From an uncultured Bryobacterales bacterium (GTDB lineage: Bacteria; Acidobacteriota; Terriglobia; Bryobacterales; UBA6623), in NCBI GenBank assembly GCA_958295955.1, contig OY282420.1:2494435-2558434 (forward strand): a DNA stretch of 64,000 bases, in the 5' to 3' direction. The notes beneath the pieces are model-generated. The model did not search any database. It saw only the letters and a list, made by a program, of their open reading frames with translations, and was not told the DNA's origin. Shown piece after piece: positions 17,870 through 24,985 of this stretch; position 1 is the stretch's first letter; each line of letters begins with the position of its first letter. Position numbers and translations under genes: made by a program.

Positions 17870-19444
17870 ATGCTCGAAATCGGCGCCGCAGCCCCCGCGA
17901 TCGACGGCATCGAGTTCTCGCAGCCGACGCTGCTCGCATTCTTCGAGACCGATTGCCCGGCATGTCACCTGACTTTGCCCTATCTCAACGCGCTGCAAGC
18001 CGCGGTGGGGGAGAAGGCCGTTGTCGCGGCCATATCCCAGGATTCCGCTTGCCCGACCGAAGCGCTGGCGAAGTCTCTGCCTATCGAGATTCCCATCCAC
18101 ATCGACCGCGGCTTGGCCGCCAGCCGCGCCTACGATCCGTTGGCGGCGCCGGCGCTGTTTCTGGTGGACCGCGGGCGGCGCATCGCCGCCGAATCGACGG
18201 GGTTCGACAAGGCCGAGTTGAACCGCATCGCCGGGCGGCTCTGCGCGCTCGCGGGCGTTCCCGCCGCGGCGCCGGCGGCGCCCCATGACGGGAATCCGCA
18301 ATGGAAACCCGGCTGCGTGTCGCGCCATCGAGAGCCCGAGTCGGGCGCGGGCGATCCCGCTCCGGTTGACGTCCATGCGCAACGCGGGCAACGCGCCGGC
18401 CGCGTCGAGTTGTCCGCCGCCGATGATCCCTACGAGTACTGCTATGAGCACGGCTTCGCCGACCCGCTGCCGGTCGTGCCGCCGACGGTCGAGCGCGTCG
18501 AGCGGATGCTCGCCGCCACCGGCCTGCCGCCCGAGCGGATCGTTGCCCGCATACCGCCGAACTTCGGCGCGGCGACGGTTGAAAAGATAGCCGCCAACGC
18601 GGTCATGGCCGGTTGCCGGCCGGAGATGATGCGCGTGCTCGTTCCGCTGACGCGCGCCCTGTGCGACGAGCGGCTCGATATCCACGGCGTCCAGGGCACG
18701 ACTCATTCCGCAGCGCCGCTGGTCATCGTTAACGGCCCCGTCCGCGGGCAGCTCGGTTTCGCCTCGGGCAGCAACGTGTTCTCCAACACGGCCCGCGCGA
18801 ACTCGACGCTCGGCCGGGCGGTGCAACTGATGCTGCGCAATCTGGGCGGCGCGGCGCCCGGCGAGATCGACATGTCCACGCTGGGCAACCCGGGCAAATT
18901 CAGCTATGTCATCGCTGAAAACGAAGAGGCCGGCCCGTGGGCGCCGCTGTGCGCCGACTTCGGGATCGATCCCCGGCGCAGCGCATTGACGCTTTATTGC
19001 TGCGAGCCGCCGCGGGGCATCAGCGAGCATGCGGCGCGCACCGCCGAAGTGCTGTTGCGGGCATTCTGCCCCGTCTTGGCCAATCTCTGGAGCCGCCGCG
19101 TCTGCCGCGCGCCGGAAGCGCTGGTGGTCATCGGCCCCGAGCACGCCGCGACGCTCAAGCGCAGCGGCTTCTCGAAAAACGATGTCGTCTCTTATCTTTA
19201 CGAGAACACGGGCATTCCGCTCTGCGAATACGACGGCGACGGCGGCGAGGGCGCGAAGACGACGCAGCGCTACGAAGAGTGCATGATCCGCGGCGTGCGC
19301 TGCTACCGGAAGTTCAACGGAACGGAGTCGATTCGAGTAATGGTCGCGGGCGGCCCCGCCGGAAAATTTTCCGCCGTACTGGGTTCCTGGCAGACGGGCA
19401 GGCGCGGCAGCCAAATGGTCAGCTACCCGCTCGACGACGAATAA
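17870..19444 (+). CDS. Redoxin fused to a large domain of unknown function, beside a UGSC selenoprotein
   Basis: The 524-residue product starts at ATG 17870. Residues 1-135 form a TlpA/AhpC-like thioredoxin fold with redox motif Cys29-Pro-Ala-Cys32 and a cis-proline near AAPALFLVD. No signal peptide is present, so it probably acts in the cytoplasm. After a linker, residues from about 180 to the end form a large unknown domain with segments [29 protein letters not shown] and [14 protein letters not shown]. From memory, proteins like this C-terminal domain occur beside UGSC genes, but I cannot confirm that here. The next gene begins 16 bases later and has its own Shine-Dalgarno, so the pair is probably an operon with thiol/selenol redox chemistry. 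Confidence 0.75.
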
Positions 19445-19460
19445 GAATGGAGCAACCGTC

Positions 19461-19997
19461 ATGTCAACCACACTGGTCAATCCGCTCGACGAGCGCGTGC
19501 GCCCGCAAGCGAACCCGGCGCAGCGCCTCGACACGCTGCAAGGCAAGCGCCTGGCGTTGCTCGACATCAGCAAACCCGGCGGCTCGATATTTCTCGACCG
19601 CCTGGAGGCGCTGCTGACCGAGCGCTATGGGGCGGCAAGCATCCTGCGCATTGCGAAGCCCACCTTCGCCAAGCCCGCGCCCGACGAAGTGCTGGCGAAA
19701 ATTCGGGAGGCGCAAGTGCAGGCAACGATCGAGGCGCTGGCCGATTGAGGCTCCTGCACCACGTGCAGTTTGCACGATTCGATACGGCTCGAAGCTCTGG
19801 GCATCCCGACGGCGCCGGTCGCGACCGACGTCTTCCGCACGGCCGCGCGGGCGCAAGCCGCCGGCCTGGGCCGTCCCGATTACGACGCGGTGTACGTTGC
19901 GCATCCGATTCAGGATCGAACCCCTGAAGAGATCCGGCGGCGGGCGGACGGCGCCGTCGATGAGATCGCGCGCAGATTGACCACGGGTTTCGGGTAG
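19461..19997 (+). CDS. UGSC family selenoprotein (in-frame TGA read as selenocysteine)
   Basis: The frame from ATG 19461 to TAG 19995-19997 encodes 178 residues if the TGA at 19746-19748 is read as selenocysteine 96. The codons that follow give Gly-Ser-Cys-Thr-Thr-Cys, so the motif is exactly U-G-S-C, the hallmark of the UGSC (seleno)protein family, in which Cys can replace Sec. The sequence on both sides of the TGA continues in one frame and looks like a single domain: [18 protein letters not shown] before it, and [15 protein letters not shown] and [19 protein letters not shown] after it. A SECIS-like hairpin lies at the expected distance. A GGAG Shine-Dalgarno sits eight bases before the ATG. 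The biochemical role is unknown; Sec96, Cys99 and Cys102 suggest redox activity. The alternative is a nonsense-mutated pseudogene, which I consider unlikely. Confidence 0.88.
19746..19776 (+). promoter_or_regulatory. Bacterial SECIS-like element at the UGA codon
   Basis: The TGA at 19746-19748 is followed by a perfect 6-bp hairpin at 19762-19776. The arms are CGTGCA and TGCACG and the loop is GTT, whose G is 20 bases after the UGA. An apical loop with an early G-U about 16-37 bases downstream is what SelB recognises in known bacterial SECIS elements. A competing hairpin (CTGCAC/GTGCAG, 19754-19768) overlaps it. Confidence 0.65.
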
Positions 19998-20041
19998 AAT
20001 CTGGAATAGCAAATCGTGCCGTGCATGAACCGGGGGTCGAC

Positions 20042-21232
20042 ATGAAAGCGCCAAGTACGGAAGCACCGCAGCAGCAACACAAGATACTGGTCGTCGACGA
20101 CGAGCCCGATCTCGAGCGCCTCGTTCGGCAGCGCATGCGCCGGGATATCCGCGCCGGCCGTTACAGCTTCGTTTTCGCCCACAACGGGGTCGAAGCGCTC
20201 GATCTGATGGCGCAAAGCCGAGACATCGACATGGTGCTCTCGGATATCAACATGCCGCAGATGGACGGCCTCACGCTGCTCGCGCAGATCCCGAGCGTCG
20301 ACCCCAACATCCGCGCCGTGATCGTTTCGGCCTACGGCGACATGAAGAACATCCGCACGGCAATGAACCGCGGCGCGTTCGATTTCATCACCAAGCCCAT
20401 CGACTTCGACGACCTGCGCATCACCATCGAGCGGACGCTGCGCAATCTGGCCGTATGGCGCGAGGCCCTCGTGTCGCGCGACAAGCTGGTCGCTCTGGAG
20501 AAAGAGTTGGGCATCGCGCGGCGGATGCAGCAGTCGATCCTGCCCACGAAATTCCCCAGCACCGCCGGCTACGAGGTGTTTGCCGACATGCAGGCCGCCC
20601 GCGCCGTCGGCGGCGACTTCTACGACGTGCTGCAACTCGACGAAGGCCGCATCGGCGTGGCCGTCGCCGACGTCTCCGACAAAGGGGTGCCGGCCGCCCT
20701 GTTCATGATGTCCAGCCGCACTCTGCTCAAAGGCGCCGCCATCGGCTGCCACGACCCGGGCGAGGTGCTGCGGGAAGTCAACGATCTGCTCTACGCGAAC
20801 AACGAGACCATGATGTTCGTAACCCTTTTCTATGCGGTTTTCGACCCCGAGAGCGGAACGCTCACGTATGCCAACGGCGGCCACAACGCCCCGCTGCTCG
20901 TCCGTGCCGATGGGAGCTCGGAGTTGCTTCCTCTGACGGGAGGGGTCGCCGCGGGGGTGGTTCCCGATCTCCACTATGGTTCCAGCACGGTAAGCCTCTC
21001 CCCGGGCGATACCGTCGTGCTCTACACCGACGGAGTCACCGAGGCCATGAGCCCCGCTGACGAAGAGTTCGGGGTCGAGCGCCTGTGCCGGGTGTTCGCC
21101 GAAGGGCCGTTCCCTGACGCTCAGCAGGCGAATACGGCTATTTTTCAGGCTGTGAGCGAATTTGCGGCAGACGCTCCCCAGTTCGACGACATTACCTGCC
21201 TGACTCTCTGCTACAAGGGGGCCGCGGCGTGA
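20042..21232 (+). CDS. Response regulator with SpoIIE/RsbU-type PP2C phosphatase output
   Basis: The 396-residue protein has an N-terminal receiver domain (about residues 13-130). It shows the acidic pair Asp19/Asp20, the phospho-acceptor Asp68 (MVLSDINMPQ) and the switch Lys in ITKPID. A helical linker follows, then a PP2C phosphatase of the SpoIIE/RsbU type (about 185-392) with metal-binding motifs GGDFYDV, VADVSDKG and DDITCLTL. It should dephosphorylate an anti-sigma-factor antagonist such as a STAS protein when the receiver is phosphorylated. I prefer ATG 20042 to a GTG 21 bases upstream. Its stop overlaps the RsbW-like gene by four bases. Confidence 0.92.
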   Translation: MKAPSTEAPQQQHKILVVDDEPDLERLVRQRMRRDIRAGRYSFVFAHNGVEALDLMAQSRDIDMVLSDINMPQMDGLTLLAQIPSVDPNIRAVIVSAYGDMKNIRTAMNRGAFDFITKPIDFDDLRITIERTLRNLAVWREALVSRDKLVALEKELGIARRMQQSILPTKFPSTAGYEVFADMQAARAVGGDFYDVLQLDEGRIGVAVADVSDKGVPAALFMMSSRTLLKGAAIGCHDPGEVLREVNDLLYANNETMMFVTLFYAVFDPESGTLTYANGGHNAPLLVRADGSSELLPLTGGVAAGVVPDLHYGSSTVSLSPGDTVVLYTDGVTEAMSPADEEFGVERLCRVFAEGPFPDAQQANTAIFQAVSEFAADAPQFDDITCLTLCYKGAAA

Positions 21233-21663
21233 GCGAGAAACTGGTTCTGCGAGTCGAACCGCAATTGACCGCCCTGGAGAAGATCGATGCCGCGGCCGAG
21301 GGGTTCGGCCGCGCGGCGAACTGGCCCGAAGCTCTTGCCTTTCAGATCCGTCTCGTTCTCGAGGAAGCCGTGATCAACGTCGTCAAGCACGGATACGGCG
21401 ACGGAGAACGCGCCGGCTGCCGGCAAGAAATCGAAATCTCAATATCGTCGGAAGCGGGCAATCTGACGATCGAGATATCCGACGGCGGCAGGGCATTCAA
21501 TCCGCTGGAGGACGGCCCCGAACCCGACCTGGACGCGGCGCTTGAAGACAGGCCCGTGGGCGGGCTGGGCCTGCATCTGATGCGCACCCTTATGGACACG
21601 ATGCGCTACCGGCGGAGCGACGGCAGAAACCACTTGACCCTGGTCAAACGGACGGATGGATGA
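21229..21663 (+). CDS. RsbW/SpoIIAB-like serine kinase (anti-sigma type ATPase)
   Basis: The 144-residue protein has a single GHKL ATPase domain of the anti-sigma kinase type. Its N box is EEAVINVVKHGY (about residues 43-54), the G1 box is IEISDGGRAFNP and the G2 region is GGLGLHLMRTLMD. Such proteins phosphorylate a STAS antagonist and bind a sigma factor or another partner. The start is a GTG overlapping the stop of the phosphatase gene (GTGA), and its own stop overlaps the next ATG. It is one component of a partner-switching module. No sigma-factor gene is nearby, so its target may be something else. Confidence 0.9.
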   Translation: MSEKLVLRVEPQLTALEKIDAAAEGFGRAANWPEALAFQIRLVLEEAVINVVKHGYGDGERAGCRQEIEISISSEAGNLTIEISDGGRAFNPLEDGPEPDLDAALEDRPVGGLGLHLMRTLMDTMRYRRSDGRNHLTLVKRTDG

Positions 21664-22835
21664 TGCGCGCGCCCGGTCTGCCTTCGTTTCTGGTTTTCGC
21701 GGCGCTCTACGCGGCGCCGGATACCCGCGCGGCCGAGGCCGGCGTTTTCGAGGACCGCATTCTTTTCGGCCAGTCGGCGGCATTCAGCGGCCCCGCCGCG
21801 GACTTGGGCAAAGACCTCAAACTCGGCATCGAAGCGGCGTTTCAAGAGATCAACGGGCGCGGCGGCGTCCACGGGCGGAAACTCGAGCTGATCTCCCTCG
21901 ACGACGCCTACGAGCCGGAGCTGGCCATCGCCAACACGCGCAAGTTGATCGACGAGGAACAGGTATTCGCCCTGATCGGCGCCGTGGGCACGCCGACGTC
22001 GCGCTCGGCAACCCCGGTCGCCGCGCGCGCGGGCGCGCCCTACATCGCGCCCTTCACCGGCGCGGCCTTCCTGCGCGACGCCAAGTGGTGGAACGTGATC
22101 AACCTGCGCGCCTCTTATGACCAGGAGACCGAAGAAATCGTCGACCGCCTGAGCGCAGACCTGGGCATCGAACGCATCGCCATTCTGTACCAGGACGATT
22201 CCTTCGGGCGCGCGGGCTACCGCGGCGTGCAGCAGGCGCTGGAGAGGCGCAAGATGAACCCGGTGGCCATGGGATCGTATGCGCGCAACACGACGGCCGT
22301 GAAGACGGCACTGCTCGACTTGCGCGCGGGGAACCCCGATGCCATCGTTCTGATCGGGGCCTACAAGCCGGTCGCGGCGCTGATCTCGTGGGCGCGGCTC
22401 ATGGATTTCAACCCCGTCTTCGTTACGATTTCGTTCGTGGGCAGCTATGCGCTGGCCAAGGAGTTGGGCGCGGACGGATCCGGGATCTTCGTTACTCAGG
22501 TGGTGCCTTTTCCGACGGCCTCCCTGCCCATCGTCTCCGCCTACCGCCGGGCGCTGGCGGCCCACGCGCCCAAGTCCTCTCCCGGTTTCGTCTCTTTGGA
22601 AGGTTACTTGGCCGGACGCTTGGCGATCGTCGGCCTGGAGCGCAGCGGCCGGGAGCCGGATCGGGATCGGTTCGTCGAAAGTCTGCGCCGCATGGAGGAC
22701 ATCGACCTCAACGGGTTCAGACTGCGCTACGGCGCAGACGACAATCAGGGGTCGGACGCGGTCTTTCTCACGATGATCGGCGCCGACGGACGCTACCGTC
22801 CGATCCGCAAGCTGTCGGCCGCGCTGGAGCCGTGA
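21660..22835 (+). CDS. Periplasmic type I binding protein (LivK/TorT-like)
   Basis: The 391-residue protein has a signal peptide (about residues 1-25) and a two-lobe type I periplasmic binding fold of the branched-chain amino-acid receptor kind. Motifs include FGQSAAFSGPAADLG, INGRGGVHGRKLELISLDD, ALIGAVGTPTS and RIAILYQDDSFGRAGY. No ABC permease or ATPase genes accompany it. Instead it overlaps the RsbW-like gene upstream by four bases and the histidine kinase gene downstream by four. This suggests it is a ligand receptor for the kinase rather than a transport component, comparable to TorT with TorS. The ligand is unknown. Confidence 0.88.
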   Translation: MMRAPGLPSFLVFAALYAAPDTRAAEAGVFEDRILFGQSAAFSGPAADLGKDLKLGIEAAFQEINGRGGVHGRKLELISLDDAYEPELAIANTRKLIDEEQVFALIGAVGTPTSRSATPVAARAGAPYIAPFTGAAFLRDAKWWNVINLRASYDQETEEIVDRLSADLGIERIAILYQDDSFGRAGYRGVQQALERRKMNPVAMGSYARNTTAVKTALLDLRAGNPDAIVLIGAYKPVAALISWARLMDFNPVFVTISFVGSYALAKELGADGSGIFVTQVVPFPTASLPIVSAYRRALAAHAPKSSPGFVSLEGYLAGRLAIVGLERSGREPDRDRFVESLRRMEDIDLNGFRLRYGADDNQGSDAVFLTMIGADGRYRPIRKLSAALEP

Positions 22836-24985
22836 CTGCTTTACTGAAACGCCTGCTGCGGGTGCGCCTGCGCATCGCCGAGCAGCTCTATATCGGACTC
22901 GGCGGGGCGGTCGTTCTTACCCTGAGCGCCAGCCTGGTCGCATGGGTTTCTTTCAACAGCGTAGGCGATGCCCAGAGCCAGGTGAACGAGGGCAGCGTTC
23001 CGGAGATGGCGGCTGCGTTCGGCATCGCTCAGCAGGTCGGCGCCCTCGTGGCCGCGGCCCCGCGCCTGACGACCGCGGCGACGCCGCAAGAGTTGGCCCA
23101 AGTCACCGCGGAAATCGGCGCGGAGCGCGGCGCTTTCGAAGAGCGCTTGGCCGCTCTGGCGCAAAGCGGCGAAGAAGAGCGGCGCTTCAACCGTATCCGC
23201 GCCGAGGGCAGAGCGCTGATGGCGAACGTCGATTCCATCGAAGACTCGGTCACGGAGCGGTTCAATCTGGCCGGCCGCAGCGTAGCCCTGCGCAGCGAGC
23301 TGGGGCGGTTGCAAAGCGCTCTGGATGGAATCCTGATCCCGGCCATCGACAATCAATTTTTTTATGCGATGACCGGTTACCGCAACCTCGGCGAGGAGCC
23401 CGCGCCGCGCGGGCTGCACTTTCGGGAACAAGAGGTCAACCGTTACCGCCATTTGACCGAATTGCACGCGGACGCCACCATTGCCACGCAACTCGTGGCC
23501 AGCGCCTTCAACATCTCCGACATCCTTCTGCTCGAACCCTTGAGGGAGCGGTTCGAAGCGGCCGCGCGCCGGATCGACCGGCACCTTGCGGCTCTCGGCA
23601 AAACCCCGTTAGCGAAAGAAACCGACCCCCGTTTCGCCCGTCTGATCGAACTGTGTCTCGGCGAGCAGGGGGGCTTCGACCTGCGCGGGCAGGAACTCGA
23701 TCTCGCCGACCAGCAGCGCCGTCTGCTGATCCGGAACCGGGAGATCGCGCTCGAACTTGTCGCCGAAGTCGAGGGTCTCGTGAGCGCCGCCCGCGAGAGC
23801 GCGGATGCGGCGACGCTGGCGTCCGCCGATACGATCCGCACCGGACAAAACCTCCTGCTCGCGTTGAACGCGGTAGGCATCGCCGGAGCGGTGCTGATCG
23901 CTTGGCTGTTCGTCGGCCGCGTGCTGCTGCGCCGCCTGGCGCTGCTCTCGGCCTGGATGCGCCGCATGGCGGGCGGCGACTTGCATGCAAAGGTCGAAAT
24001 CGGCGGGCGCGACGAAGTGGCGGACATGGCCGCGGCCCTCGAAATCTTCCGCCGTCAAGCGCTGGAAGCGCAGCGCCTGAACCTGGTTGAAAAACTGGCC
24101 GAAGAACTGCGCGGCAAGAATGCCGAACTCGAGACCGTGCTGACGGATCTACGCCGCGCCCAGGATCAGATCGTCACGAAAGAGAAATTGGCGGCGCTGG
24201 GCGAGCTCACTGCCGGCGTGGCCCACGAAATCAAGAACCCGCTGAACTTCGTGAAGAATTTTTCCGAGGTATCGGGCGAGTTGCTGGAAGAATTGCAGGA
24301 GATCTTGCAAGAAGGAGGAGAAAAGTTGACCGCGGAGCAGCACGAGGAAGTGCGCGAGCTCTGCGTGGACCTGACCGAGAATCTCGACTGCATCCGCGAG
24401 CACGGCAACCGCGCCAATCGGATCGTACACGACATGCTCATGATGGGCCGGGACTCCGGCCAGCGCATGGCCGCCGACATCAACACCCTGGTCAAGGATA
24501 ACGCCCTGCTTGCCTTCCACAGCGCGCGGGCGACCGATTCGGATTTTCGCCTCGAGATCGAGGAGGACTTCGACCCGCGGGTGGGCATGGTCGAAGTGGT
24601 CCCGCAAGAAATCGGCCGCGTCATCCTGAACATGGTCGGCAACTCCTGCCACGCCACCGATGACAAGCGCCTCGCCGGCGCCGGGAACAGCGGCGCGGCG
24701 TCGTACGCGCCCACGCTGCGGCTGACCACGCGGCGCGTCGGGGACCGCATCGAAATCAGCGTCCGGGACAACGGAAACGGCATCCCCGCCGACGCCGTCG
24801 ACAAGATTTTCAACCCCTTCTTCACGACCAAGCCGACGGACCGGGGTACAGGACTCGGGCTTTCGATGTCCAACGACATCGTGCGCAAGCATGGGGGCAA
24901 CATCCGCGTCGCGTCCGAGCCCGGAAGCTTCACCGAAATGACCGTTGACTTGCCCGCGGAGGCTCCCGCCGCGGCGCAGAACTGA
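22832..24985 (+). CDS. Membrane sensor histidine kinase, TorS-like sensor domain
   Basis: GTG 22832 overlaps the stop of the binding-protein gene (GTGA) and gives 717 residues. TM1 is at about 17-39. A long, mostly helical periplasmic region (about 40-338) resembles the TorS-type helical bundle that docks a binding protein. TM2 is at about 339-362, followed by HAMP, a coiled coil, a HisKA domain with His465 (GVAHEIKNPLNF) and a HATPase domain with N box VILNMVGNSCHA and the G boxes DNGNGIP and GTGLGLSMS. It should phosphorylate a receiver, most simply the phosphatase-linked one at 20042, in response to a periplasmic ligand. It ends three bases from the convergent STAS gene. Confidence 0.9.
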   Translation: MTALLKRLLRVRLRIAEQLYIGLGGAVVLTLSASLVAWVSFNSVGDAQSQVNEGSVPEMAAAFGIAQQVGALVAAAPRLTTAATPQELAQVTAEIGAERGAFEERLAALAQSGEEERRFNRIRAEGRALMANVDSIEDSVTERFNLAGRSVALRSELGRLQSALDGILIPAIDNQFFYAMTGYRNLGEEPAPRGLHFREQEVNRYRHLTELHADATIATQLVASAFNISDILLLEPLRERFEAAARRIDRHLAALGKTPLAKETDPRFARLIELCLGEQGGFDLRGQELDLADQQRRLLIRNREIALELVAEVEGLVSAARESADAATLASADTIRTGQNLLLALNAVGIAGAVLIAWLFVGRVLLRRLALLSAWMRRMAGGDLHAKVEIGGRDEVADMAAALEIFRRQALEAQRLNLVEKLAEELRGKNAELETVLTDLRRAQDQIVTKEKLAALGELTAGVAHEIKNPLNFVKNFSEVSGELLEELQEILQEGGEKLTAEQHEEVRELCVDLTENLDCIREHGNRANRIVHDMLMMGRDSGQRMAADINTLVKDNALLAFHSARATDSDFRLEIEEDFDPRVGMVEVVPQEIGRVILNMVGNSCHATDDKRLAGAGNSGAASYAPTLRLTTRRVGDRIEISVRDNGNGIPADAVDKIFNPFFTTKPTDRGTGLGLSMSNDIVRKHGGNIRVASEPGSFTEMTVDLPAEAPAAAQN

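Follow-up and report, generated by a model that had tools for sequence, protein, structure and literature searches.

Does the in-frame TGA of a short bacterial gene end a 95-residue protein, or does it encode selenocysteine (Sec) within a longer one, and in the latter case what could such a protein do? The question is raised by a forward-strand frame in the 64,000-nucleotide stretch of DNA analysed here (the window). Translation table 11 yields a 95 aa gene call at 19461-19748. Read directly from the sequence, the frame runs from ATG 19461 to TAG 19995-19997 with a single internal stop, TGA 19746-19748, at residue 96, and continues for 82 residues past it, which makes 178 codons in all (19461-19997). 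The original prediction, made from the letters alone, saw here a selenoprotein of the UGSC family hidden behind the TGA; its interrupted frame, UGSC motif, coordinates and residue counts were all correct on re-reading, and family matches spanning the TGA, retention of the TGA in relatives and the presence of Sec machinery bear out the reading itself. The locus is, on this evidence, a real selenoprotein gene cut short by gene callers at UGA, and its product is an additional member of an already known, uncharacterised family. Beyond the known family, we describe an obligate partner, a linkage to thioredoxin and a relationship to glycine reductase. With a partner, a fused thioredoxin domain, a linked thioredoxin reductase and a Sec domain homologous to that of glycine reductase, the function of UGSC becomes biochemically testable.

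A UGSC-family gene interrupted by UGA

The 178-aa read-through protein matches Pfam PF24696 (UGSC) at 7.7e-48 over residues 5-174, and NCBIfam NF041046 (UGSC_fam) at 151.2 bits, above the curated cut-off of 125 bits, so that the family assignment proposed from the motif holds. Both matches lie on both sides of the TGA, and the read-through is therefore far beyond chance. The UGA codon (19746-19748) falls in the sequence U-G-S-C-T-T-C, whose U96-G-S-C99 fits the [U/C]-G-S-C family motif with Sec from UGA; Cys99 (19755-19757), invariant in alignments A1 and A3, is the probable resolving Cys of a U-x-x-C pair. A GGAG at 19449-19452, 8 nt 5' of the ATG, is a probable ribosome-binding site. TGA is the ordinary stop of the next gene (21230-21232), which excludes a general code change.

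The family is present in 31 of the 297 genomes sampled from the phylum. The stand-alone copies recovered whole elsewhere in the phylum, from many genera, likewise carry TGA at this codon, and homologues with Cys in place of Sec96, which the original prediction had suggested looking for, were found by a pattern scan at 25 loci, among them Methylobacterium, Bradyrhizobium, Rhodoplanes, Elioraea, Burkholderiales and Bacteroidota. No relative of UGSC turned up in a scan of viral contigs, and sequence searches of the PDB found none for UGSC, GrdB or the partner domain described below.

A separate observation concerns a family of the same phylum, designated f29 here (genus g43), in which genomes carry from 9 to at least 12 UGSC-type genes each. 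Most are fusions of UGSC with the partner domain, about 550-620 aa long, in which an in-frame TGA occupies the Sec position; many start with an apparent signal peptide (judged by eye). The set looks like an unusual proliferation of selenoproteins that appear to be exported.

Selenocysteine machinery and a SECIS-like hairpin

The host genome (4.58 Mb, 95.5% complete) holds the full apparatus on which a selenocysteine reading depends. The selA, selB and selD genes score 518, 376 and 296 bits, each above cut-off, with selD less than 4 kb from selA, and a single tRNA-Sec stands above cut-off at 75.9 bits, with anticodon TCA as read by ARAGORN, that is, tRNA-Sec(UCA). These observations support decoding of UGA 19746-19748 as Sec by SelA, SelB, SelD and tRNA-Sec.

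Just 3' of the UGA lies a SECIS-like hairpin, CGUGCA-[GUU]-UGCACG (19762-19776, forward strand), with a 6-bp stem, G as the first base of the loop, and a loop that begins 19 nt past the UGA. Bacterial SECIS elements typically have such a loop at such a distance. The full six-pair stem occurs in 10 of the 11 distinct Sec genes, where synonymous codon shuffling predicts 0.58, and in 0 of 20 Cys genes; one relative (L039) preserves it through a two-sided change, CGUGGA/UCCACG. The tested sequences are related and the stem is marginal at best in single genes (p 0.03 to 0.28), so that the weight lies in the whole set and in the contrast between Sec and Cys genes. This contrast may itself partly reflect residue differences past the motif, for which the shuffles control within each gene. 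Folding of 19740-19800 favours another hairpin, CUGCAC/GUGCAG; the test across relatives was made for the CGUGCA/UGCACG stem. Scanned against Rfam, neither the window nor 19600-19950 by itself gave a SECIS or any other RNA. In the f29 fusion genes, another hairpin, such as GCCGGC-GGUC-GUCGGC, is found at about the same place.

An obligate partner gene

The original prediction regarded the operon context of a UGSC protein as useful, and so it is: the conserved part is the upstream gene, and not the regulatory genes downstream. The stop codon of this upstream gene ends 16 nt 5' of the UGSC ATG. Its start was called mechanically at GTG 17732; ATG 17870 is likelier, as orthologues begin at the corresponding Met, and this places the gene at 17870-19444 on the forward strand. 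It encodes two domains. The first is a thioredoxin-like domain (17924-18214; residues 65-161 of the 17732 frame) that matches Redoxin (PF08534) at 3.1e-9, has a C-x-x-C motif (TDCPACH) and resembles DsbE/ResA in fold. The second is a C-terminal domain of about 345 aa (18407-19441), which we name Unk1 and for which Pfam, NCBIfam and the PDB gave no relative. Structure prediction for the whole partner was poor (pLDDT 61.5), with fold matches only for the thioredoxin domain.

Unk1 is an obligate partner of UGSC. All 31 UGSC genomes of the 297-genome sample have it, and the two co-occur in 31 of 32 genomes, the sole Unk1 match without UGSC being a 48-residue piece at a contig end. It stands directly 5' of UGSC in 25/25 Cys loci, and the 4-base overlap of the two genes in several of these (L049, L050, L052) suggests translational coupling. 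Twelve plasmid loci were checked, from Actinomycetota, Pseudomonadota and haloarchaea, and in every one Unk1 adjoins UGSC or is fused to it. Single chains containing both occur in f29 genomes and on plasmids of Acidovorax and Variovorax boronicumulans.

Some of the plasmid copies deserve mention in their own right. Natrinema and Halalkalicoccus plasmids carry Cys-type UGSC with Unk1 neighbours, and in Halalkalicoccus UGSC is flanked by one Unk1 on each side. On the conjugative IncP plasmid p2-T1 of Acidovorax sp. T1 (L136, 8640-11135), UGSC and Unk1 are fused in a gene with an in-frame TGA, of which the annotation shows only a 96-residue hypothetical protein.

Proposed electron supply and gene neighbourhoods

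A thioredoxin-like domain is fused to Unk1 in the window and in most Cys loci, where it has a CETC motif. TrxB-like genes lie near UGSC-Unk1 in 12 loci: 11 of the UGSC loci examined and a Paracoccus plasmid. The latter, pFER4 of Paracoccus ferrooxidans, is the most informative of these and assembles in one region (about 1313.8 to 1336.2 kb; L151, 5792-28943) genes for tRNA-Sec, TrxB, SelA, a cysteine desulfurase, TusA- and DsrE-like proteins, UGSC, Unk1, a TRAP-type binding protein and SelB. Its UGSC is annotated as two hypothetical proteins divided around the TGA, and copies of ISPme2 at 1315 and 1336 kb bracket most of the region; the whole resembles a transferable selenocysteine module. By uniting Sec machinery, TrxB and UGSC-Unk1, pFER4 ties selenium, the partner and the thioredoxin system to one function. 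On pBEN of P. versutus, as on pFER4, tRNA-Sec is close to UGSC-Unk1.

The other neighbours of UGSC relatives are catabolic. A BKACE gene is directly 5' in five Bacteroidota loci; genes for a 3-hydroxyacyl-CoA dehydrogenase, an AraC regulator and an amino-acid permease were confirmed at L050; and elsewhere we find a Na+/dicarboxylate symporter, a TctC receptor, GntR/FCD regulators and CaiB/BaiF CoA-transferases. Neighbours vary between lineages, which makes one substrate for all unlikely.

Within the window, the UGSC/partner pair is flanked by no catabolic genes. Downstream, 20021-24985 encodes a response regulator-SpoIIE phosphatase, an RsbW-like kinase, a periplasmic binding protein and a histidine kinase that weakly matches a TorS-like sensor; together they may form a partner-switching or ligand-sensing system. 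In none of the four listed close relatives do these genes recur next to the pair, and they are thus probably unrelated to it.

Relationship to glycine and D-proline reductases

GrdB and PrdB are the Sec-containing B subunits of glycine/sarcosine/betaine and D-proline reductase. In a bona fide GrdB of our set (L114), an in-frame TGA terminates the PF07355 match; read past this codon, the protein continues with U-x-x-C-x-x-C, E-x-x-G-I-P and IPHP, in the layout of UGSC and with identical Sec-to-GIP spacing. Alignment with hhalign of 44 UGSC against 20 GrdB/PrdB-like sequences gave 88% probability (E 2.9e-6), with Sec on Sec. The score of 45.1 compares with at most 24.4 for 150 column-shuffled GrdB alignments and 16.5 for a reversed one, and was still 36.8 with the Sec motif masked. 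With small alignments the match was three residues out of register, and larger ones placed Sec on Sec. Two GrdB reading frames are also the top hits of a UGSC HMM within their loci (5.6e-5 and 0.0054).

These profile comparisons support a homology of UGSC with the Sec domain of GrdB/PrdB that is remote and confined to that domain. The end of the Pfam PF07355 match at the Sec codon would account for the missing link between UGSC and GRDB in Pfam. PF07355 has no match in the UGSC protein even at E 10, and none in the genome. In the available portions of papers that mention both UGSC and GrdB, no link is drawn between them. PF04723 (GrdA) and PF09338 (the pyruvoyl subunit) have no match in the genome, nor in control genomes. 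The phylum also has many small PrdB-like proteins with a U-P-x-C pattern, cut at TGA by ordinary gene calling.

Discussion

The UGSC family, its Sec decoding apparatus, the Unk1 partner, the thioredoxin linkage and the homology of the Sec domain with that of GrdB are each supported by the observations above. A GrdB-type Sec domain combined with a thioredoxin chain makes a two-subunit reductase the most economical model, and we consider it fairly likely that UGSC serves as selenol subunit in a thioredoxin-dependent reductase of two components, its UGA being decoded as Sec with the aid of a SECIS element. From these elements we infer a UGSC-Unk1 complex, its chemistry and its substrate, the last probably an acyl-CoA or a small organic acid. 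The hairpin just 3' of the UGA would help SelA, SelB, SelD and tRNA-Sec to decode Sec96. Unk1, in the upstream protein, would most likely hold the substrate, although this role is a guess as long as its structure prediction is unreliable. Sec96, where a helix begins behind the third strand of the predicted doubly wound alpha/beta domain, would be the nucleophilic or redox residue, as Sec is in GrdB/PrdB; its selenolate could attack the organic acid or acyl-CoA held by Unk1, and Cys99 could resolve the intermediate by forming a selenenyl-sulfide. Reduction of this selenenyl-sulfide would then fall to the thioredoxin-like domain joined to Unk1, itself recharged by thioredoxin reductase.

Alternatively, UGSC could be a general thiol or selenol oxidoreductase, similar to thioredoxin or peroxiredoxin and acting on protein disulfides or peroxides, with Unk1 as an accessory. 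The U-x-x-C redox motif and the thioredoxin linkage of UGSC loci are in keeping with this view, as is the Trx-like fold proposed for UGSC in the accessible text of a 2008 survey (PMC2398784). However, our AF2 model (pLDDT 87.5, pTM 0.83) shows five parallel strands in an alpha/beta sandwich, with Sec96 immediately ahead of helix 97-112, and its best PDB fold matches are lumazine-synthase and CheY-like chains, with no thioredoxin-fold chain among them. The predicted fold, with Sec at a helix start, thus appears CheY/lumazine-synthase-like rather than that of thioredoxin; a large obligate partner and catabolic neighbours also argue against a general oxidoreductase, which we hold to be possible and rather unlikely. 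It is more doubtful still that UGSC-Unk1 serves to bind or detoxify some metal or metalloid for which Sec would be the ligand: such a role has been proposed for other orphan selenoproteins, as far as the available part of that report goes (PMC13188914), and several UGSC copies are on conjugative plasmids, but in the plasmid loci read the annotation places no metal-resistance genes next to UGSC, and the neighbours are TrxB, CoA-transferases, BKACE and carboxylate transporters. That the TGA is a true stop, through sequencing error, a pseudogene or a premature 95-residue product, has in its favour only that table 11 terminates there, and is hardly credible given family matches on both sides, a TGA shared at this codon by relatives from many genera, a full Sec machinery and the SECIS contrast between Sec and Cys genes.

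Extending the selenol-subunit reading to the family as a whole, we tentatively raise the idea, with somewhat less than even confidence, that UGSC and Unk1 represent an unrecognised glycine-reductase-like class: a thioredoxin-driven Sec/Cys reductase or reductive lyase, with Unk1 in place of the pyruvoyl subunit, which would serve organic-acid catabolism in bacteria and haloarchaea and reach at least 9 copies per genome in one lineage.

Three known systems offer a comparison. With the UGSC family of NF041046/PF24696, the window protein shares a full-length match, the U-G-S-C motif, UGA-encoded Sec and the existence of Cys homologues; the protein itself has no distinguishing feature, and it is the partner gene that carries a fused thioredoxin-like domain. 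The 2008 Global Ocean Sampling survey, in the part available, describes a fusion of UGSC with a domain termed Unknown_1 (PMC2398784), which is very likely, if unproven, the same as Unk1. There, as here, UGSC is linked to one conserved unknown domain, whereas the window has two separate genes and an Unk1 fused to a thioredoxin-like domain. Finally, UGSC has in common with GrdB/PrdB (PF07355) a homologous Sec domain, with U-x-x-C-x-x-C, the same spacing to E-x-x-G-I-P and a later I/V-x-x-HP. GrdB is thioredoxin-dependent, and we propose the same for UGSC. In contrast with GrdB/PrdB, UGSC is without the N-terminal region modelled by PF07355, has Unk1 rather than a pyruvoyl subunit as its partner, and occurs in aerobic lineages and haloarchaea.
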